From: an uncultured Chitinophagaceae bacterium
Lineage (GTDB): Bacteria > Bacteroidota > Bacteroidia > Chitinophagales > Chitinophagaceae
Assembly (NCBI GenBank): GCA_903883945.1
Contig: CAISCV010000281.1
Coordinates: 1 to 51,175, forward strand
Length of the DNA stretch: 51,175 bases
Direction of reading: 5' to 3'
The notes under the pieces are model-generated. The model saw nothing but the letters and a program-made list of their open reading frames with translations. It did not search any database and had not been told where the DNA came from. The position numbers and the translations under genes were made by a program. Position 1 is the stretch's first letter. Every line of letters starts with the position of its first letter. Below, in pieces: positions 22,041 to 44,192 of the stretch.

Positions 22041-22280
22041 ATAGCAAGTTTTAGGAGGTAAATGTAGGATTATTCGTAGGGTTTGTTTATAGTAAAACGC
22101 CTCTTGAGATATTTGCCAGATCTATTTTACATAGTTAACGACTTAATTTAAACGCTGTCACGTCAAAATATAAGCAGACAGACCTTTAACAGTAATTATT
22201 ATTAGAGAGAAAAAAGAGACACCGTTTGAGTTTTATTATCAGACCATAAAAAAACAAGCGTTAGAACAGTTAAAAACAGA

Positions 22281-22312
22281 AAAGCCCTCGAATCAAACGA
22301 CTCAAGGGCTTT
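22281..22312 (-). terminator. Terminator for the 22.4-23.1 kb gene
   Basis: AAAGCCCT/AGGGCTTT (22281-22288 with 22305-22312), an inner GA..TC helix and a small loop. On the minus strand a T-rich tract follows. Confidence 0.7.
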
Positions 22313-23291: not shown

Positions 23292-23609
23292 TTGCCATTG
23301 TTTGATGAAATAACAGCGTTACTTGATGAAATAACAGCGTTGCTTGATGAAATAACAGCGTTACTTGATGAAACAACAGCGTTACTTGATGAAATAACTG
23401 CGTTGCTTGCTGAAACAATAACTTTTTTTGATGAAATAAAGGCATTGTTTAATGAAAAAAAGGGGTTGCTTGATGAAAGAAATGTATTGTGTGTTGAGAA
23501 AATGACTTTGTTTGATGAGGTAGGGGCGTTGTTTGATGAAACAGCGTGCCTAAAAGCACATATAAGGTGCGGCCTATCGAAACTTTTAGAGGAATTAGCA
23601 ACATTTTAG
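23292..23609 (+). CDS. Possible heptad-repeat protein encoded by a 21-bp array
   Basis: A 105-residue open frame starts with TTG 7 bases after a purine-rich GAGGAGA (23279-23285), unusual here because most genes lack such a site. Residues 3-86 are twelve heptads of consensus A-L-L-D-E-I-T. The first five are almost identical and later ones diverge (for example G-L-L-D-E-R-N, A-L-F-N-E-K-K), yet every unit stays exactly 21 bases and keeps the hydrophobic pair followed by D/N-E in most copies. This would form an acidic amphipathic helix or coiled coil. Absence of stops is weak evidence because 21 is a multiple of three, so expression is uncertain. Confidence 0.4.
   Translation: MPLFDEITALLDEITALLDEITALLDETTALLDEITALLAETITFFDEIKALFNEKKGLLDERNVLCVEKMTLFDEVGALFDETACLKAHIRCGLSKLLEELATF
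23295..23546. repeat. 21-bp tandem repeat array, about 12 units
   Basis: Twelve direct units of exactly 21 bases, containing the core 'TTGATGAAATAACAGCG'. Units 1-5 differ by one or two bases; units 6-12 are diverged. There are no spacers, so this is not a CRISPR array. Confidence 0.92.
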
Positions 23610-23831: not shown

Positions 23832-24017
23832 ATGAACAAAGCATTCTATTGGTGTGTGGACGTCTTAAAGTTTTATGCCAACAAATTGGGCATGACTTAC
23901 GAAGAGATTAATATCTGGATTTTCTGCATTATCGAACCCATCGTTTTCTTTATCATGTTGGGTATGATTATTCACTTTTATATCAAAATGAAAAACTTAC
24001 AAAAAAGGATTAGCTAA
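23832..24017 (+). CDS. Small single-helix membrane protein
   Basis: A 61-residue protein with ATG start. An N-terminal amphipathic part with 'YANKLGMTYEEIN' is followed by one strong transmembrane helix (about 28-50, IWIFCIIEPIVFFIMLGMIIHF) and a basic tail (YIKMKNLQKRIS). The topology suggests the tail is cytoplasmic. It is the leftmost member of the accessory small-protein cluster, but it lacks the D-(S/T) tail of its neighbours. Not recognised. Confidence 0.6.
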   Translation: MNKAFYWCVDVLKFYANKLGMTYEEINIWIFCIIEPIVFFIMLGMIIHFYIKMKNLQKRIS

Positions 24018-24278: not shown

Positions 24279-24632
24279 ATGATTCCTACAATTGGTTGCA
24301 AGCCCTCCCCTATTAAGACTATCAATTTTCGATTTGCCAACTTGGTCGTATTCATTTTTATAATAACTAGCATTGGTTGCCAGAACCAAATAGATAATCA
24401 ATTCCAAAAAAGGCCTATTGATTGGGAACAAAGATTGAGCGTTATTAATAAACAAATAGATTCATTGGTTGCCGATACGGCAAGAATAGATAGCATGATT
24501 CGAGTATTGAGACACAATAAAACAAAAAACAGCCATGCTATTAATCAGCTAAAAAACAATTTTGCTACAGATAGTACTATCCTTTGGGGATTGCAGGGAG
24601 AGGAACATGATATTTATGAACCAGGACATTAG
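24279..24632 (+). CDS. Putative lipoprotein with coiled-coil D-S/T repeat
   Basis: About 117 residues from ATG 24279; the frame is open upstream, with further ATGs at 24255 and 24201. A hydrophobic stretch ends in a lipobox-like 'ITSIGC' (Cys34), predicting lipidation. The mature part has 'VINKQIDSLVADTARIDSMIRVL', where I-D-S-L-V, A-D-T-A-R and I-D-S-M-I repeat every five residues, the same tail motif as the next genes. The stop codon lies inside the 10-bp target duplication of the 158-bp transposable element that begins 4 bases later, so the insertion just missed the gene. Function unknown. Confidence 0.55.
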   Translation: MIPTIGCKPSPIKTINFRFANLVVFIFIITSIGCQNQIDNQFQKRPIDWEQRLSVINKQIDSLVADTARIDSMIRVLRHNKTKNSHAINQLKNNFATDSTILWGLQGEEHDIYEPGH

Positions 24633-24804
24633 AATCCAATGTCGTTTAGTTAAGCATTTGCCACTAATTGCACTAATATGCACGAATGTGCATTATTGGT
24701 ATTCATTAGTGCAATTAGTGGCAAAAACTAGTATCTATTTGTGCATCTTTATGCCTTTGAGTCTTTTTGGCTAACGCTTAACTAAACGACATTGCATTAG
24801 AATC
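24627..24804. mobile_element. 158-bp MITE-like element with target duplication
   Basis: Perfect 19-bp terminal inverted repeats CAATGTCGTTTAGTTAAGC (24637-24655) and their complement (24776-24794) bound a 158-bp element with no coding capacity. It is flanked by a perfect 10-bp direct repeat CATTAGAATC (24627-24636 and 24795-24804). Eighteen of 19 terminal bases match the end of the IS4-like element at 51035, so that transposase family probably moved it. The interior carries a large perfect palindrome. Confidence 0.9.
24657..24725. repeat. Nested palindrome inside the MITE
   Basis: A perfect 21-bp inverted repeat (24657-24677 with 24705-24725, arms beginning TTTGCCACTAATTGC and ending GCAATTAGTGGCAAA) encloses a second hairpin ATGCAC-GAAT-GTGCAT (24678-24693). 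The transcript from either strand would form a long stem. Confidence 0.9.
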
Positions 24805-24938
24805 TATTTGAGTTTATAGATTAGAATTAGCTATATAAGCTTATTTGATTGAAACAAGATAAATTTTGCAGTAAAAAATGCAAACCAGTACTACTCGTTT
24901 TAGTTGTTTATTATACTTGTATTAAAAAAACTTGAAAC

Positions 24939-25217
24939 ATGCCCTTATCGTATTTTTTAATTTATTTACCTCCCCTTTTAATAGGTTATTTTAGTGCATC
25001 AAGCGTTTATAAGCACCTAAAGAAAGCAGCTTCCCCCAATAGCAAAATCTTTGCGATGCTTACGTTTTTGATAGTATACCTACTTTGTTTTGTTGTTATG
25101 TTTTTATTATCTGTAAAGCGTCCTGTACCCGTTAAACTAAGGCAAGGTAGCTCGGACACTTCCCGTTTTTTAAAGGATACAACGCAAATAGACTCCCCTA
25201 ATAATTTAAAAAAATAG
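24939..25217 (+). CDS. Small two-helix membrane protein with D-S/T tail (member 1)
   Basis: 92 residues: helix 1 at about 4-20, a basic loop 'SSVYKHLKKAASPNSK' (21-36), helix 2 at 37-58 and a hydrophilic tail containing 'SDTSRFLKDTTQIDSPN'. The tail shows the repeat S-D-T-S-R, K-D-T-T-Q, I-D-S-P-N. Two helices with a basic loop predict a cytoplasmic loop and both ends outside the inner membrane. It is the first of six adjacent genes on the same strand; member 2 starts 3 bases after its stop. A possible -7 box TATACTTG is at 24912-24919. Not recognised. Confidence 0.65.
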   Translation: MPLSYFLIYLPPLLIGYFSASSVYKHLKKAASPNSKIFAMLTFLIVYLLCFVVMFLLSVKRPVPVKLRQGSSDTSRFLKDTTQIDSPNNLKK

Positions 25218-25220
25218 TTT

Positions 25221-25511
25221 ATGAATAACCTTCCTACCCTTTTTACGCTTTTATTACTCGTCGCAACTGTTTTTTTTACGACGCTACTAATCAATTCGAA
25301 ATTGACTCCGCAATCAACGGCAAAAACCCTGATTAACATCGGCAGCATATTGCTTGCGTTTGATTTTTTGGTACTTTCTGTCGTCTCTGTTAGGGTTTAC
25401 ATGAGGCATCACCCGCCTCCCCCAGCAAAGATTGAGCAAGACTGTTGCGCTCACCCCGATAATACAACACAGGATACCCTACTTAAAAAGGATAGTACGA
25501 AGGCTAACTAA
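25221..25511 (+). CDS. Small two-helix membrane protein with D-S/T tail (member 2)
   Basis: 96 residues: helix 1 at about 5-24, loop 'INSKLTPQSTAKT', helix 2 at 37-57 and a tail with 'RHHPPPPAKIEQDCCAHP' then 'TQDTLLKKDSTKAN'. It lacks the Tyr-Lys motif in the loop and has a weaker D-T/D-S repeat, so it is the most diverged member. The Cys pair and His/Pro-rich segment could bind metal, but this is only a composition remark. It begins 3 bases after member 1, so translation is probably coupled. Confidence 0.63.
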   Translation: MNNLPTLFTLLLLVATVFFTTLLINSKLTPQSTAKTLINIGSILLAFDFLVLSVVSVRVYMRHHPPPPAKIEQDCCAHPDNTTQDTLLKKDSTKAN

Positions 25512-25530
25512 TTTTAGTGTATAAATAAAA

Positions 25531-25992
25531 ATGATGGCTAGTTTCTTACTTGTATTTATGTTTTTATGCTTCCTTTTTATCGTTGCTAGTGTTGGTTTAT
25601 TAGCCCTAAAATGGCATAGAAGACTGTATAAAAATAAAAATAGCAGTAAATTATTGTCGGGGGTAAGTTTGGTTTTAACAGCGTTGGCAGGCATTGTTTT
25701 TATAGTTGGTATTGGTTATCCCATCAGTGCCTATTTTTACAATGCAACCCACTGTTCCAAAATAGTAAATAAGGAAACTAATTCTTTAAAACAATTAGAT
25801 GATGAGCTGACAATAAACTTTAATGCCTACAACAGGATAAAAATGGATACGACAAGATTGGATAGTTTAAAAAAAATGAATCGAAATAAATTGAGAACAG
25901 ATAGCTTTGCAAATAAATTAAAAATAGATCGTTTGCAAATGGATAGCTTAAACAGAAGAATCTGCCATTTACAATCTATACTCAGCGATTAA
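25531..25992 (+). CDS. Two-helix membrane protein with long coiled-coil tail (member 3)
   Basis: 153 residues, the longest of the set. Helix 1 (about 3-24), basic loop 'KWHRRLYKNKNSSK' with the L-Y-K motif, helix 2 (about 42-64), then an 85-residue charged helical tail. The tail contains 'MDTTRLDSLKK', 'LRTDSF' and 'KIDRLQMDSLNRRIC', the D-(S/T) repeats of the family spread through a predicted coiled coil. It starts 19 bases after member 2. Not recognised; a membrane-anchored oligomerising protein is the inference. Confidence 0.66.
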   Translation: MMASFLLVFMFLCFLFIVASVGLLALKWHRRLYKNKNSSKLLSGVSLVLTALAGIVFIVGIGYPISAYFYNATHCSKIVNKETNSLKQLDDELTINFNAYNRIKMDTTRLDSLKKMNRNKLRTDSFANKLKIDRLQMDSLNRRICHLQSILSD

Positions 25993-26007
25993 CCTAAAAC
26001 AAAAAAA

Positions 26008-26385
26008 ATGGACGGTTTGTTTATTGGATTTCTTTTTTTGGCAGGTATACTCATCAGCTTTTTTGTGGTAATGAAACTTTATAAATCGGTAAGTGCTTCT
26101 TCGGGAAAAGTAACAGCGTTATTACTCTCTGCCTGTGTATTTGTTTTAACGATGGGACTGTTATTTATATTGATGTTAGCATATCAAAGTTCGCAAATGA
26201 GAAGAGTATATCCGTACGGCAGAGATATAGATACGTCAAAAGTAGATAGCAGCCAATTAGATACCTTTAATAAAAGTAATCGTACAGAACCTGTAACAGA
26301 TACGCCTAAGGAAACTAGTACCAAAGCCCTAAAATTTAATGCTAGTGAAAGGGCACAATTAAAGCAATCGATAGACGGACATTAG
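26008..26385 (+). CDS. Small two-helix membrane protein with D-S/T tail (member 4)
   Basis: 125 residues: helix 1 at about 5-22, loop 'MKLYKSVSASSGK' with L-Y-K, helix 2 at 36-58, and a tail with the clearest repeat, I-D-T-S-K, V-D-S-S-Q, L-D-T-F-N. After this come a Thr/Glu-rich linker and 'FNASERAQLKQSIDGH'. It starts 15 bases after member 3. Confidence 0.66.
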   Translation: MDGLFIGFLFLAGILISFFVVMKLYKSVSASSGKVTALLLSACVFVLTMGLLFILMLAYQSSQMRRVYPYGRDIDTSKVDSSQLDTFNKSNRTEPVTDTPKETSTKALKFNASERAQLKQSIDGH

Positions 26386-26482
26386 TTTCATTGGAAGAAT
26401 GAGGTTGAGTGGGTATTTTAAGCAGTAAAGGGTAACATTTAGTTTATTATAAATCATTTAAAAAAATAAAACAACCATCAAA

Positions 26483-26785
26483 ATGTTTACGGCGTATCTA
26501 CCCATATTAATTATATTGGCAATTCCCATCCTAATCGCTTATTTGAGGGCTAAGAAGGTGTATGAAAAACATAAAGCACTTGGCAGCACCAATATAGCAG
26601 CAAGGGCTTTAGGTACTTTTGTGGGCATAATAGCTGTTATTGTTATTCCCTTATTTATAGTATTGGGTTTATTAATCAGTACAATGTTTAGTCGTGGTCA
26701 TCCGGGAGGTTATGATAGGGAAAGAGTCCCGGTTGATACGCTCAGAATAGATAGTTCGAAAATGGATACAACGAAAAATAAGTAA
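26483..26785 (+). CDS. Small two-helix membrane protein with D-S/T tail (member 5)
   Basis: 100 residues: helix 1 at about 4-20, loop 'RAKKVYEKHKALGSTN' with V-Y-E, helix 2 at 45-67, then 'SRGHPGGYDRERVP' and the repeat V-D-T-L-R, I-D-S-S-K, M-D-T-T-K at the C-terminus. A 97-base gap from member 4 could hold a second promoter. Closest in layout to member 6. Confidence 0.66.
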   Translation: MFTAYLPILIILAIPILIAYLRAKKVYEKHKALGSTNIAARALGTFVGIIAVIVIPLFIVLGLLISTMFSRGHPGGYDRERVPVDTLRIDSSKMDTTKNK

Positions 26786-26806
26786 TCGTTTTAAATAGGT
26801 ATTATT

Positions 26807-27139
26807 ATGGTAGCGTTAATTGTTATTTTGTTGATAATTGGATCCATTAGTTTTTTTATTACTAAAAAGGTATATAAACGGAATATCGAAAAAAAGAAAT
26901 CTACTTTATTTTCGCTGAGCCTTGTCACTTTTGGTGGTTCTTTTATAACGATGAGTACCCCTATCGTTATTATTTTCTTTTTAGCTAATTTAAAGTGTAA
27001 CAGGGGCAATCCAAATGATAGAGAGGGCGTAAAAGCCGATTCTACCATACCCTTATCTGATAGTTCAAAATTTGATAGTAACCAAGTGGATACAAATGCT
27101 AGCACCTATTCCAACAAATATTCTAGTCATTTAAAATAG
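26807..27139 (+). CDS. Small two-helix membrane protein with D-S/T tail (member 6)
   Basis: 110 residues: helix 1 at about 2-18, loop 'TKKVYKRNIEKKKST' with V-Y-K, helix 2 at about 35-60, then 'KCNRGNPNDREGV' and the repeat S-D-S-S-K, F-D-S-N-Q, V-D-T-N-A. The segment after helix 2 (R/C-x-R-G-x-P-x-x-x-D-R-E) aligns with 'SRGHPGGYDRERVP' of member 5, which supports common descent. Its last 9 bases overlap the end of the convergent DUF2306 gene. Confidence 0.66.
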   Translation: MVALIVILLIIGSISFFITKKVYKRNIEKKKSTLFSLSLVTFGGSFITMSTPIVIIFFLANLKCNRGNPNDREGVKADSTIPLSDSSKFDSNQVDTNASTYSNKYSSHLK

Positions 27140-27763
27140 CCTTCTTCTAATAATCAGTTCAGCCATTAGAAGGTTGGGAACAAACCCCATCCACGCATCA
27201 ATCATATACAAATGCAAGGGAGAAATCACAAAAATGGCAGAAAGAATAATGCGCCACGTACGTAATGTAATAGCCGAAAAGGTAAGTGCATAGCTTCTAA
27301 TCATAAATTGCTTGTGCAATGTAAAATTCTTTTGCAACGCTGTTTGGTATGCTTTTAAAGTAAACCAAAACCATAAACTATCAAGTATCAAAAAGGCGAG
27401 TTTAGACGGCCACAAGCCACTTGCATAGATAGCCATAATAAACCCTGTGGGAAAATTGATGCACAAAACAGCCACTACATACACTTTACCCAACACTTTG
27501 TGTAGATTTTTGTAATGAAGTAACAGGAAGGAAGAAAACTGGGTGAATCCTGCTATCAGTGTAAACAAGCTGGTAAATACATGAATGTAAAAAGCATACA
27601 GCCAAACTTTTATGTGTATATAATCTTGTTTCTGACTAAGGAATTCGTATTGTAAATTGAATCCTGCATAGCCTAGAATCATCCGGAGCATCAAAAAAGT
27701 AGCGATACACATTATCAGATAAAAGACCATATCCTTTAAAGTTTCTATGACTATTCTTTTCAA
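27131..27763 (-). CDS. DUF2306-like multi-helix membrane protein
   Basis: The 210-residue protein has about six or seven hydrophobic helices and the landmarks of DUF2306: 'HVFTSLFTLIAGFTQF' near 61-76, 'HKVLGKVYVVAVL' near 88-100, 'HKQFMIRSYALTFSAITLR' near 150-168 and 'WMGFVPNLLMAE' near the end. Paired histidines on helices suggest possible heme or metal binding, which is an inference. The only plausible starts are TTG at 27763 or an ATG 11 codons in; the TTG version keeps a basic N-terminus. It converges with member 6 of the small-protein cluster and is probably unrelated to it. Confidence 0.8.
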   Translation of the reverse strand: MKRIVIETLKDMVFYLIMCIATFLMLRMILGYAGFNLQYEFLSQKQDYIHIKVWLYAFYIHVFTSLFTLIAGFTQFSSFLLLHYKNLHKVLGKVYVVAVLCINFPTGFIMAIYASGLWPSKLAFLILDSLWFWFTLKAYQTALQKNFTLHKQFMIRSYALTFSAITLRTWRIILSAIFVISPLHLYMIDAWMGFVPNLLMAELIIRRRLF

Positions 27764-41933: not shown

Positions 41934-43859
41934 TTATGGCACCAGCACTTTGCCAATATACAATTTAGTTCCATTAGATTGTATTGATAGAATATAAAGC
42001 CCTGTTGTAAACGGTTTGCTTACGGTATAAACACTAGTCTCGGCAGTTAATGCCACATTCTTGCTAGTAATCATTTTACCATCTATTCCGTATACAGAGA
42101 TAATCCCTTTGCTAAAATTAGCCCCAGGAACTTTTAAGAAAATGACGTTTCCTACTACATAGGTTTTAACTTGAAGTTCACTTGACAAATGAGTCCTTAC
42201 TTGTATAGTTCTGGAATAAGTTTTCTTCCCATTGTCATTTGTTTGAGCAATACGATAATAGTTTAAAGTGAGAGGCGATTTGTCAGTGAAAGTATAATTT
42301 GAAAGCCCAATGCTCGTTTTGTTATCCGAAGCTATGGTAGTGATCGCACTAAAGTCGACACCATTGTTACTTTTTTCGATAGTAAAAAAGCTATTATTAA
42401 ATTCATTTTTTGCGCCCCATTGTAGCAGTATACTTTTGTCTAAGAGCGTACTATTAAAATAAACCCAGTCTATTGGCAGCGAAGTACAAGTGCCCGCTGT
42501 AATTGCGACCATTCCGTCAGCTATACTCAATGCGCCACTTGTAGTAAACACCCGTCCATTGATGGAGTCACCTGTATTTAAAACTACTTGTCCATTATTA
42601 CAGATAATTGTTCCGTTAAAGACTGAGTTGTTATTAATATTAACGGCCCCTTCTACCTTCCAAAATACATTTTTTGCTTGAGCTCCATTCTGTAATACCA
42701 CTTTAGAAAAGGTACTTGTGGAGAGTGCTCCATTTATTTTGATGATAAAAACCGCATCGGCATTGCCTTGTGCATTTAAAAACACCGTACCTGTTAATGC
42801 AGTTGCTGCATTTAACAAATAGGTATGAGGTGTAAGAACCAAATTGTTCCCGAATTGTGCAGGGAACAATAACTCGATATCTGGTGTGAGGATATCAATG
42901 TAGTTGTATACTTTCAGTAAATCTGAGGCACAAGCTGCTGTAGAAAAATCTGGCTTAGGGTGTATAGTTCCTGTTACAAAAAGAGCATTAAAGCCTTCTG
43001 TTAGCCCAACATCAGTACCCACATCGCCTACAATATGGCTAACCCCACTGTTGGTAACAGCCCCATTACCAGAGAAGACAGCATAACAGCCAGCAGAACC
43101 TAGAACGGGGGATGTTGGCCCAGTAAGTATTGGCGCATTACAACCTGTAGGTATGGAAGTTGTCGAGCCAACTACCGTAATCGCACCGGTTGTGGATAGA
43201 AACCGTCCTTCGAGCGAATCGCTTGTGTTTATATTGATGGCAGCATTGTTGGCAATCACCGTTCCCCGCATAAATGTTCCTGATGCCATACTTACCAAGC
43301 CTTCTACTTTCCAGAAAACATTACAAGCCTGACTGCCATTAATCAATCGTATCTTAGAAGAAGCGAATGTGGAAAAAGCACCTTGTAGTTGAAAGATAAA
43401 CACGGCATTGGGATTGCCCTTGGCATCTAGAAACAAGTTGCCATTTAATGTGGACGTACTAAATATTTTATATACTCCTGCTATTAGTGTATCACCATTT
43501 CCGAGTAATGACGAGGGAAACAAGGTGGGAATTGCACTATTTAATTGATTATAAGCAATCAGCAAATCTGTCGCACTCGCCGCACTAGCCCCATCCTGAT
43601 TGTGCATTACACCATTAACATTACCAAAACCAGTGATAGGACCATTGTTGGTACCTATGTTGCCCGTGTAGTTTGAGGGACCACTATTGGTAACAGCTCC
43701 GTTAGTAGAGAAAAGGACAAAATCGGCGACAGTACCTAATGTTGGTGCTTGTGCAGAATTTATAATAGGCAATGCTAGTATCAAAATGATGGTAAGAATA
43801 GACTGAAACAGGGTGTTTGTAACTTTAATCTTCGATGTGTTAGATATATTTTTTTTCAT
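41934..43859 (-). CDS. Secreted protein with two DUF3494 (ice-binding-like) domains and T9SS tail
   Basis: 641 residues from ATG 43859; 14 extra in-frame codons upstream were judged non-coding. Signal peptide about 1-37 (NSAQA). Two related domains follow: about 41-240 and about 248-450. Both show the DUF3494 pattern 'LGTVADFVLFSTNGAVTNSG', 'GNIGTNNGPI', 'NPNAVFIFQLQGAFSTF', 'CNVFWKVEG' and 'FMRGTVIANNAAI', repeated with variants in domain 2. The C-terminus (about 560-641) is a T9SS sorting-like domain with 'SVYGIDGKMITSKNVAL' and 'GLYILSIQSN'. DUF3494 domains are beta-solenoids that bind ice or act as adhesins. Monocistronic. Confidence 0.9.
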   Translation of the reverse strand: MKKNISNTSKIKVTNTLFQSILTIILILALPIINSAQAPTLGTVADFVLFSTNGAVTNSGPSNYTGNIGTNNGPITGFGNVNGVMHNQDGASAASATDLLIAYNQLNSAIPTLFPSSLLGNGDTLIAGVYKIFSTSTLNGNLFLDAKGNPNAVFIFQLQGAFSTFASSKIRLINGSQACNVFWKVEGLVSMASGTFMRGTVIANNAAININTSDSLEGRFLSTTGAITVVGSTTSIPTGCNAPILTGPTSPVLGSAGCYAVFSGNGAVTNSGVSHIVGDVGTDVGLTEGFNALFVTGTIHPKPDFSTAACASDLLKVYNYIDILTPDIELLFPAQFGNNLVLTPHTYLLNAATALTGTVFLNAQGNADAVFIIKINGALSTSTFSKVVLQNGAQAKNVFWKVEGAVNINNNSVFNGTIICNNGQVVLNTGDSINGRVFTTSGALSIADGMVAITAGTCTSLPIDWVYFNSTLLDKSILLQWGAKNEFNNSFFTIEKSNNGVDFSAITTIASDNKTSIGLSNYTFTDKSPLTLNYYRIAQTNDNGKKTYSRTIQVRTHLSSELQVKTYVVGNVIFLKVPGANFSKGIISVYGIDGKMITSKNVALTAETSVYTVSKPFTTGLYILSIQSNGTKLYIGKVLVP

Positions 43860-44066
43860 TCTACAAAGGTGGATGTGGCGATGTGTTTGCCAATTACACA
43901 ATTGCAGATAAAATTTACATAATTAATTAGGTTTGATAAAGTGTAAGATATGAATGATGGTACGAATAGTATTGTATTCTTATATGATAGGCCAGAAACT
44001 TTACCCTAATCTTGTTAATGTTTGCTACCTACTTATAAAACCCTCCTACATACCTGAAAAAATTTG

Positions 44067-44192
44067 CGCAATACCTCAATAAGTCTACCAAATACTTTGC
44101 AAACTTTTCCCAATACTTTGCAAAGTATACGCCATGCTTTGCAAAGTTTCCCCAATACTTTGCAAGGTTTTCGCCCTAGTTTGCAAGATTTA
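44067..44192. repeat. 21-bp tandem repeat array with palindromic cores, 6 units
   Basis: Six units of exactly 21 bases (the first diverged), core 'CCAATACTTTGCAAAGT'. In the best units ACTTTGCAAAGT is a perfect 12-bp palindrome. In one plus-strand frame (TTG 44064 to 44282) it reads as repeats of P-N-T-L-Q-S-F, but this frame overlaps the end of mqnA and has no support as a gene. It ends 20 bases from the mqnA stop. Confidence 0.9.

Follow-up and report, generated by a model that had tools for sequence, protein, structure and literature searches.

A family of two-helix membrane proteins encoded convergently at the 3′ end of one DUF2306 clade in Bacteroidota

KdpF is a small accessory subunit of a membrane protein, and CydX, KdpF and AcrZ are all single-helix proteins. 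CtaM/YozB we take to be a DUF420 protein. CydX is reported as a component of cytochrome bd needed for its function and AcrZ as a protein that binds AcrB (PMC4325964, PMC6005532, PMC7267776), and CtaM is described as required for aa3 oxidase function (PMC4958251). DUF2306 proteins, by the account of a 2026 paper, are common in fungi and bacteria and had been functionally uncharacterised until then; the paper presents the fungal DUF2306 protein PraC as membrane-integrated, with five predicted helices and required for an epoxidation, leaving open whether it serves as catalyst or scaffold (PMC12895699).

Here we describe a locus in a contig of an uncultured Chitinophagaceae bacterium (the window, that is, the whole stretch of 51,175 nucleotides analysed) where four small genes, m1, m4, m5 and m6, encode one family of two-helix membrane proteins. 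Members of this family are encoded next to the 3′ ends of DUF2306 genes from a single clade, in convergent orientation. That such a family exists and pairs with DUF2306 we regard as nearly certain. As with CydX, KdpF and AcrZ, a tiny hydrophobic protein is tied to one membrane protein, with no sequence kinship claimed; unlike them, it is a two-helix protein, is encoded convergently and comes in one to five or more copies. The partner is a clear member of the family of PraC (Pfam PF10067; 119.7 bits against a gathering cut-off of 31.6), and belongs to a Bacteroidota clade marked by the small convergent gene and by invariant N103 and D128, features that the comparison set of 17 other DUF2306 proteins lacks. 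DUF420 (PF04238) was also matched by two divergent partner DUF2306 proteins, over 54 and 72 residues, at 20.4 and 22.6 bits against a cut-off of 30.5, which does not amount to membership. The presence of the small gene in 36 of 36 clade members compared indicates which DUF2306 proteins to study, with which partner and at which two residues, and illustrates that a conserved partner may be encoded convergently and so escape searches guided by operons.

Small two-helix genes of the window

A preliminary description of this DNA had claimed six adjacent plus-strand genes, and six ORFs of 92–153 aa with intergenic gaps of 3–97 bases bore this out: m1 (24939–25217; 92 aa), m2 (25221–25511; 96 aa, with a tail), m3 (25531–25992; 153 aa, with a long D-S/T tail), m4 (26008–26385; 125 aa), m5 (26483–26785; 100 aa) and m6 (26807–27139; 110 aa), all on the plus strand and all two-helix proteins. 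The (V/L)-Y-(K/E) motif said to follow helix 1 is likewise present in five of the six translations (as LYK in m3) and missing from m2. Kinship was assessed with a profile from which window and G004 sequences were excluded, using 200 hydropathy-preserving shuffles of each protein as the control. Among 194 window ORFs, m1 (34.9 bits), m6 (29.6), m5 (23.7) and m4 (15.0) took ranks one to four, each with 0/200 shuffles, whereas membership was unproven for m2 (8.7 bits; 2/200) and weak for m3 (7.2 bits; 34/200). Pairwise shuffling gave a weak m3–m4 relationship (6/1000), and the best pair involving m2, m2–m5, stood at 28/1000. The proposed tandem paralogy thus stands for m1, m4, m5 and m6 but not for m2 and m3; the cores of the four are 24–37% identical, and their sequences support a reading as tandem duplicates with deep divergence.

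One profile used on other genomes (A2) combined the four window members and the only copy found in genome G004, of which m6 is the positional counterpart (cores 43% identical); m2 and m3 were excluded from A2 and from the later profiles A3 and A5, and L038 9432–9608, L054, L058 9729–9935 and L082 were left out of the latter two. In the m5 structure model, a helix hairpin (residues 6–33 and 38–68) reaches a pLDDT mostly of at least 95 and is followed by a probably disordered tail at about 60. After helix 2, a loose (hydrophobic)-x-R pattern occurs in 38 of 38 profile rows from outside the window's genus; the same position reads FSR in m5, MRR in m4 and CNR in m6 and is not clear in m1, and a Cytophaga copy (L038 9432–9608, not among the 38 rows) stops before F-x-R. 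A small-family tree, built from 69 columns, left 24 of 40 forks open. It united m5 with m6 (support 95) and the members of two collinear Mucilaginibacter pairs (95 and 96), and it grouped the G004 copy with L049 (84) rather than with m6, despite their 43% identity. We drew no duplication history from this tree.

The small proteins had been put forward as candidates for an undescribed system, and no Pfam or NCBIfam family was found for them in the libraries searched. None of the six window proteins scored above the Pfam cut-offs. Among the matches listed for 40 members of profile A3 against Pfam and NCBIfam (25 of the 66 and 25 of the 43 families, with curated cut-offs for the first member), the best value was E 0.0015 and no family was common to more than four members; five further members matched no family in these libraries at E ≤ 0.001. 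A sequence search of solved structures returned eight rows at E 0.036–0.92, which we took as noise. Between orthologues, the small proteins had a dN 1.6–4.8 times that of the linked gene, and dN/dS was 0.18–0.39 in 7 of 11 pairs and saturated in the other four; among the measured pairs, m5 and the G004 copy are not positional orthologues. The small genes are therefore real genes, under purifying selection in the orthologue pairs where it is measurable, and positive selection was not seen in the 11 pairs, four of them saturated for the small gene. The earlier impression of diversification holds for the faster dN but not for dN/dS between orthologues. Small two-helix genes outside the family libraries searched can thus be real and conserved.

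Pairing with DUF2306 across Bacteroidota

The DUF2306 gene of the window (27131–27763, minus strand) encodes a membrane protein of 210 aa and meets m6 tail to tail: its stop ends at 27131 and m6 ends at 27139, an overlap of 9 bases. This convergent neighbour was absent from the preliminary description. The protein model has a pLDDT of 90.3, and the family carries invariant histidines at H61, H88 and H150. Neither Foldseek (at E ≤ 0.001) nor a sequence search of solved structures gave a match. VIA structure comparison returned cytochrome b561 (4o7g; Z 8.0, 152 aligned residues, rmsd 4.8) and other heme b proteins, with unrelated helical proteins scoring equally high; the list was headed by talin, FAK and TRPV rows, a helix-bundle similarity.

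Applied to every ORF of 45 more loci chosen by DUF2306 similarity alone, profile A2 gave 19 matches at E ≤ 0.001 in 15 loci, each of them a gene converging on the 3′ end of DUF2306. At a relaxed cut-off (E ≤ 0.25 at 25 loci and E 0.35 at L050), a small two-helix relative occupied this position in 26 of 26 loci whose DUF2306 exceeded 200 bits. A later 38-row profile recovered all 26 at E ≤ 1e-3; most of these loci contribute rows to it, and L034 and L054 do not. With the same profile, the small gene was found at 0 of 42 loci with a lower-scoring DUF2306 (L012–L033 and L059–L078; best E 0.56), a count in which L032 is a fragment of a DUF2306 gene and some loci may repeat, since loci may share a genome (L007/L040 and L008/L043 give equal sequences or scores). 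Across the 26 linked loci, there is a tail-to-tail overlap of the frames in 19 and a gap of at most 8 bases in five more; at L043 and L058 a small gene was found no nearer than about 170 and 220 bases. The D-S/T tail is missing from the small relatives at all but one of these loci.

Wider samples gave the same picture. A blind profile search of 395 genomes of the phylum (13 profile candidates scored per genome; the listed genomes nearly all 99–100% complete) found two other genomes matching at E ≤ 1e-4, both with the small gene convergent to a DUF2306 gene. In a second set of eight new loci, the small gene was present at 4/4 inside the clade, once in three copies, and at 0/4 outside. Among 117 family genomes, the six with a small-family match at E < 1e-10 were the six with a DUF2306 above 200 bits, both searches being treated as covering the same 117 genomes and five of the six not being blind, their copies sitting in the profile. 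Ten more weak small-family matches were seen among the 117 genomes.

In a tree of 53 DUF2306 proteins, from which the long branches L022, L024 and L025 were left out (an earlier tree lacked L149), the 36 linked and 17 unlinked proteins were divided by one branch, with support of 100/99 and recovery in all 200 bootstrap trees. N103 and D128 were present in 36/36 linked and 0/17 unlinked proteins. The linkage marks one clade, and linkage and the N103/D128 change therefore represent one evolutionary event rather than repeated co-occurrence. The outer neighbours (10 proteins a side) differ at most loci examined, which marks the pair as a unit, and it was found on contigs labelled Chitinophagaceae, Sphingobacteriaceae (Mucilaginibacter and Pedobacter), Cytophaga and Flavobacteriales. 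Arrays of the small gene occur in several lineages; in two Mucilaginibacter species, three array members keep the same order, and the genome of the window has one DUF2306 (E ≤ 1e-20) against four to six small genes. The preliminary description had named helix plan, tail repeat and synteny as the traits to look for in homologues: helix plan and synteny are kept elsewhere, but the tail repeat is not shared.

Several other matches were set aside. In G007, a genome of the same genus with no DUF2306 at E ≤ 1e-20, an unlinked two-helix look-alike of 69 aa (L082/L124; E 2.5e-5) has no recognised DUF2306 neighbour, lacks the F-x-R end, and is chance or very distant kin. The match in G013 (L003) is part of a larger ORF, of sterol-desaturase type by the look of its sequence; that in G009 (L083) is driven by a (KVDSV)n tail; and those in G010 (L084) and G006 (L085) are weak and different.

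A proposed accessory subunit and its alternatives

Taken as a whole, we find the observations best explained, by a modest preference, if the small protein serves the clade DUF2306 membrane enzyme as an accessory subunit, a partnership and an activity that we infer. A physical complex between the two seems to us an even call. The small protein would form an inner-membrane hairpin whose basic loop faces the cytoplasm and whose two termini lie in the periplasm, the conserved F-x-R at its C-terminal end standing immediately beyond the membrane. For DUF2306 we envisage a protein of six helices with the three invariant histidines, in which the clade-only polar pair N103 and D128, in helices 3 and 4, may form a site completed or guarded by the partner. 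Most likely it would act in membrane redox chemistry or modify lipophilic substrates, since an epoxidation depends on PraC, the only DUF2306 protein characterised so far; redox or oxygenation chemistry in particular is a tentative assignment, which we hold somewhat less probable than its contrary. With the small gene multiplied in several lineages, the diverged paralogues are possible alternative subunits, and those of the window's genus also acquired tails, which probably lie in the periplasm and are O-glycosylated. A convergent pair does not make up an operon, and joint expression is therefore not implied. In its fullest form, which we hold somewhat less likely than not, the clade DUF2306 would be an obligate two-part enzyme: a six-helix core with a new polar site and a fast-evolving two-helix subunit encoded on the opposite strand, which some lineages (with the longest tails here) would have multiplied into a panel of alternatives, here with sugar-coated periplasmic tails, so that one core could be tuned for several tasks.

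The overlap or near-abutment of the genes at 24 of 26 loci, although the outer neighbours change, would also be expected of a regulatory pair, in which 3′-antisense transcripts let one gene damp the other in an excludon-like manner while the proteins act separately or oppositely; antisense control by overlapping bacterial genes is an idea already described (PMC7154746). We consider this unlikely, given the wider spacing at L043 and L058 and the retention of the protein signature by the majority of array members distant from DUF2306 (L038, L053 and L058). The pair could instead have stayed together passively, as unrelated genes adjacent in one clade, and linkage on a single branch may indeed reflect inherited history; persistence of the pair amid differing outer neighbours and across the four groups of contig labels makes this improbable.

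A toxin–antitoxin or immunity-like set, with the small proteins as membrane-active toxins or immunity proteins that DUF2306 counteracts or matches, is a further reading that we judge to have little chance. Small hydrophobic proteins in rapidly diverging tandem arrays, the patchy distribution (6/117 family genomes) and a match of m5 to the PADLOC 2TM effector model (E 8e-5) speak for it. That model, however, matches 1/43 members, as does each of five other listed models (best E 8e-5 to 0.095), a pattern that generic two-helix similarity could produce; the invariant residues of DUF2306 look enzyme-like, and DUF2306 has no match on plasmids at E ≤ 1e-20 and, in viral contigs, 30 stretches that fit a pattern, none of them confirmed; and the three collinear Mucilaginibacter array members are unlike what is expected of fast-turnover arrays. 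The suggestion that the cluster is an immunity array, a surface sensor or an envelope-stress set found no support, as no toxin, effector, sensor or known defence gene was recognised among 10 neighbouring window ORFs (four without a Pfam match).

D-S/T tails and the O-glycosylation motif

Bacteroidota are reported to O-glycosylate D-(S/T)-x sites on lipoproteins and on periplasmic parts of inner-membrane proteins (PMC8729774, PMC12871550). The tails of the window carry the same type of site on candidate periplasmic segments; they differ in forming dense arrays on short tails, often at a spacing of five. Upstream of m1, a lipoprotein-like orphan ORF (24279–24632, plus strand), which is no member of the two-helix family, has sites of the same kind, as had been claimed: four D[ST], all four fitting the motif, with two pairs at spacing 5. 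Its kinship with the six small proteins is unsupported (it scores 1.7 bits against the family profile), a search of 13 genomes from the genus gave one other match only (E 0.084), and its link to the cluster is uncertain.

Together, the seven tails, that of the lipoprotein-like ORF included, hold 24 D[ST] against 6.6 in shuffles and 10 pairs at spacing 5 against 0.09, neither count being reached in 20000 shuffles. The tail repeat attributed to all six small proteins is thus real in its enrichment and spacing, but the m2 tail fits loosely. An example is the m5 tail, from SRGHPGG to the stop (26690–26785, plus strand), with three O-glycosylation-type sites. The tails were seen only in the window's genus, and since the relatives examined outside it have no repeat, the tail is an add-on rather than a family signature.

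From their motif, we judge it likely that the tails are O-glycosylated. The pattern D-(S/T)-(A/I/L/V/M/T/S/G/C/F) fits 20 of 24 tail sites against 46% expected (p 2e-4), and a charge-based topology, in which the basic loop carries the largest net charge in 42/43 members, predicts the tails to be periplasmic. In this genome the motif is 2.12-fold enriched in exported ORFs and at 1.07 in cytoplasmic ones, with E and N control motifs at 0.97–1.00 in both, 'exported' being a crude hydrophobicity rule that left 28 of 225 ORFs unclassified. This fit, enrichment and predicted location make it rather unlikely that the tails serve simply as disordered spacers or as coiled-coil-like linkers, without sugars, a reading favoured by the low model confidence of the m5 tail, the spacing of five, the four sites off motif and the same kind of repeat in the 56-aa lipoprotein of G009 (L083), which means that the repeat is not special to the small-protein family. 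The tails are dense natural candidates for O-glycosylation. Among the 225 ORFs with at least 80 aa in 271 kb of this genome (m1 and m2 presumably missing through an overlap filter), two spacing-5 pairs occur in four proteins only, all of them in the cluster.

Six small genes and a convergent DUF2306 gene

The window corresponds to contig 281 in a genome of 4.09 Mb and 314 contigs. ORF translation confirmed the six plus-strand genes of the preliminary description at 24939-27139, and none of the encoded small membrane proteins, m1 to m6, reached the cut-off in a Pfam search. Directly after m6 lies a gene absent from that description, a minus-strand DUF2306 gene (PF10067; 27131-27763) that overlaps the end of m6 by nine bases.

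With m5 as a single query against 39 genomes, we recovered m6 (E 5e-5) and m1 (E 1.7e-3) in the window genome and one copy (E 1e-3) in G004, a genome of the same genus; a match in G013 was false. All-against-all comparison tied m1, m4, m5 and m6 together. As a more stringent test, an independent profile of 38 relatives, with window and G004 sequences left out, ranked m1, m6, m5 and m4 at the top of 194 window ORFs, with scores equalled by 0 of 200 shuffles preserving the hydrophobic pattern, while the scores of m2 and m3 were not distinguishable from such shuffles (200). Pairwise shuffling agreed with the profile test and gave a weak m3-m4 link (6 of 1000 shuffles). The paralogy earlier proposed for all six genes thus narrows to m1, m4, m5 and m6, which are kin; m3, which also carries LYK after helix 1, is a possible member, and membership of m2 is unproven.

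Upstream of the six lies a lipoprotein-like ORF (24279-24632, plus strand), whose sole other match in 13 genomes of the genus had an E-value of 0.084. Between this ORF and m1 is a MITE-like palindromic element (24633-24798) with 19-base inverted ends and, as read from the sequence, a 9-base direct repeat ATTAGAATC on both flanks; about ten near-full copies (89-95% identity) occur in the window genome, and further copies in genome G001. An ORF of 21-base tandem repeats at 23292-23609 (8.6 copies) encodes a coiled-coil-like heptad, (LLDEITA)n, and a second 21-base array with partly palindromic units (44069-44186) lies beyond the start of the minus-strand ORF 41934-43901. The ORF at 23832-24017 encodes 61 aa with a hydrophobic helix and had no Pfam match, and the intergenic stretch 22144-22289 recurs many times elsewhere in the genus (genomes G003 and G011), frequently close to contig ends.

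Pairing of the small gene with DUF2306

We collected 46 loci solely by DUF2306 protein similarity and searched every ORF of at least 45 residues in the fetched loci with a first profile, which combined four members from the window with the copy from G004. With the locus of that copy (L034) excluded, since its copy is in the profile, 15 of 45 loci gave a total of 19 matches (E up to 0.001), every one on the strand opposite DUF2306 and at its 3′ end. Where DUF2306 exceeded 200 bits (26 loci), a small copy was present at E ≤ 0.25 in 25 loci and at E 0.35 in the remaining one (L050). A 38-row profile detected a copy at E ≤ 1e-3 in all 26, including L034 (6e-7) and L054 (9e-8), which lie outside that profile, and in 0 of 42 lower-scoring loci (22 and 20 from two separate DUF2306 locus sets; best E 0.56).

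The coding frames, as called, overlapped tail to tail in 19 of the 26 loci and lay at most 8 bases apart in five more; in L043 and L058 the distance was about 170 and 220 bases. As called, the small ORFs are 58-106 residues long (98 in L034), with the start of some set too far upstream. They encode two hydrophobic helices around a basic loop that frequently contains V-Y-K, and nearly all terminate in a form of F-E-R. Short extensions occur on a few (L053, L054, L057), and a D-S/T tail, with its repeated D-(S/T), only on the G004 copy. Two contigs labelled Verrucomicrobiaceae (L049, L054) bear the pair, which could reflect transfer or wrong binning.

Ten proteins from each side of the pair, drawn from 17 of the 26 loci in total, were surveyed, and these outer neighbours mostly differed. 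One side held an EamA transporter, an erythromycin esterase, a TonB receptor, DNA polymerase I, an ATP-grasp-like protein, a hydrolase, a MacB-like permease twice (in two Mucilaginibacter arrays) and two proteins without a family; the other held YchF, an ABM monooxygenase, an NAD-binding protein, DUF2652, OmpA, MarC and four without a family. The conserved unit is therefore the pair of small gene and DUF2306 gene.

Copy number varies, with four to six in the window, five in Cytophaga aurantiaca (L038; one short and without F-x-R, the C-terminal motif after helix 2), four and three in two Mucilaginibacter (L058, L053), three in genome G569 (L196) and two each in L048 and genome G400; in most other loci one was found. 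Because three members of the two Mucilaginibacter arrays are collinear best matches (48, 57 and 49% identity vs 24-40% for other pairs), these arrays are older than the two species. Across nine non-window pairs, identity was 40-63% for the small proteins vs 75-84% for DUF2306. In the pairs where it could be measured, dN/dS was 0.18-0.39 vs 0.05-0.09, with synonymous sites near saturation. By these comparisons the small proteins evolve faster than DUF2306, yet under purifying selection.

In a blind test, a 40-row profile run against 395 genomes of the phylum matched three at E ≤ 1e-4: the window genome, G346 and G400. In the latter two the match (two tandem copies in G400) adjoins a DUF2306 gene and converges with it; these DUF2306 genes score 101.7 and 108.3 bits, respectively, against Pfam and are missing from the E ≤ 1e-30 DUF2306 list of the sample. 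In the family sample of 117 genomes, a small-gene match below 1e-10 occurred in six, the same six that have DUF2306 above 200 bits; because the profile already included copies from five of these six, what the result shows is that strong copies unlinked to DUF2306 are absent. Matches in 11 other genomes were weaker (2.5e-5 to 0.0096), of which only that of G007 was inspected. A wider family sample of 394 genomes yielded 12 new loci, four repeating sequences already used; the small gene was present in four of the remaining eight (one with three copies) and absent from four, and locus L026 also had none.

A DUF2306 clade and a candidate accessory subunit

In a tree of 53 DUF2306 proteins, one branch separated the 36 linked to a convergent small gene from the 17 unlinked (support 100/99; 200 of 200 bootstrap trees), and an earlier 48-row tree was concordant (SH-aLRT 95). 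The five unlinked proteins from the four new loci and L026 fell outside the linked clade. N103 and D128 (window numbering) were present in 36/36 linked and 0/17 unlinked proteins; H61, H88, H150, R168 and others were common to both. The predicted model places N103 within helix 85-112 and D128 within helix 118-143, and a cytoplasmic C-terminal RRR would put the two residues in the half of the membrane facing the periplasm, roughly level with H61. L203-L206 and L026 represent a second subgroup of DUF2306 that lacks the small gene; genome G091 encodes a member of it plus a linked DUF2306 copy elsewhere.

The small gene accompanies every clade DUF2306 compared, even as the surrounding genes change, an argument for a common function. 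The small protein, hydrophobic and linked by its gene to a single membrane protein, most resembles an accessory subunit, of the kind that CydX is described to be for cytochrome bd (PMC4325964, PMC6005532). The chemistry of DUF2306 is a guess based on the fungal DUF2306 protein PraC, reported to be needed for terminal epoxidation (PMC12895699), on three invariant histidines, and on resemblances to heme b proteins, which scored no higher than unrelated helical proteins, and to DUF420, below its cut-off. Pfam and NCBIfam searches yielded no model for the small proteins, and in the literature searched for DUF2306 and PF10067, judged mostly from titles and abstracts, we found no treatment of a small convergent partner.

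Topology and candidate glycosylation of the tails

The inter-helix loop averages 4.6 K+R, and in 42 of 43 members its net charge is larger than that of either end; by the positive-inside rule both ends are predicted to be periplasmic. The m5 model shows a confident helix hairpin and a tail of low confidence.

The tails contain 24 D-(S/T), of which 20 match the published Bacteroidota O-glycosylation motif, reported as D-(S/T)-(A/I/L/V/M/T/S/G/C/F) (PMC8729774, PMC12871550). We counted a stricter motif (third residue A/I/L/V/M/T) over 271 kb of the window genome: it occurred at 2.12 times expectation in exported ORFs (128 vs 60.3) and 1.07 times in cytoplasmic ORFs, with E and N control motifs at 0.97-1.00 in both classes. 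For small membrane ORFs, the ratio was 1.35 (E and N controls, 0.89 and 0.48). Since the motif is enriched in exported and not in cytoplasmic ORFs, the organism probably uses the O-glycosylation system, and the tails are dense in candidate sites. In genome G009, a 56 aa lipoprotein (L083, 493-663) has a C-terminal half of (KVDSV)n, in which motifs of the O-glycosylation type are arrayed.
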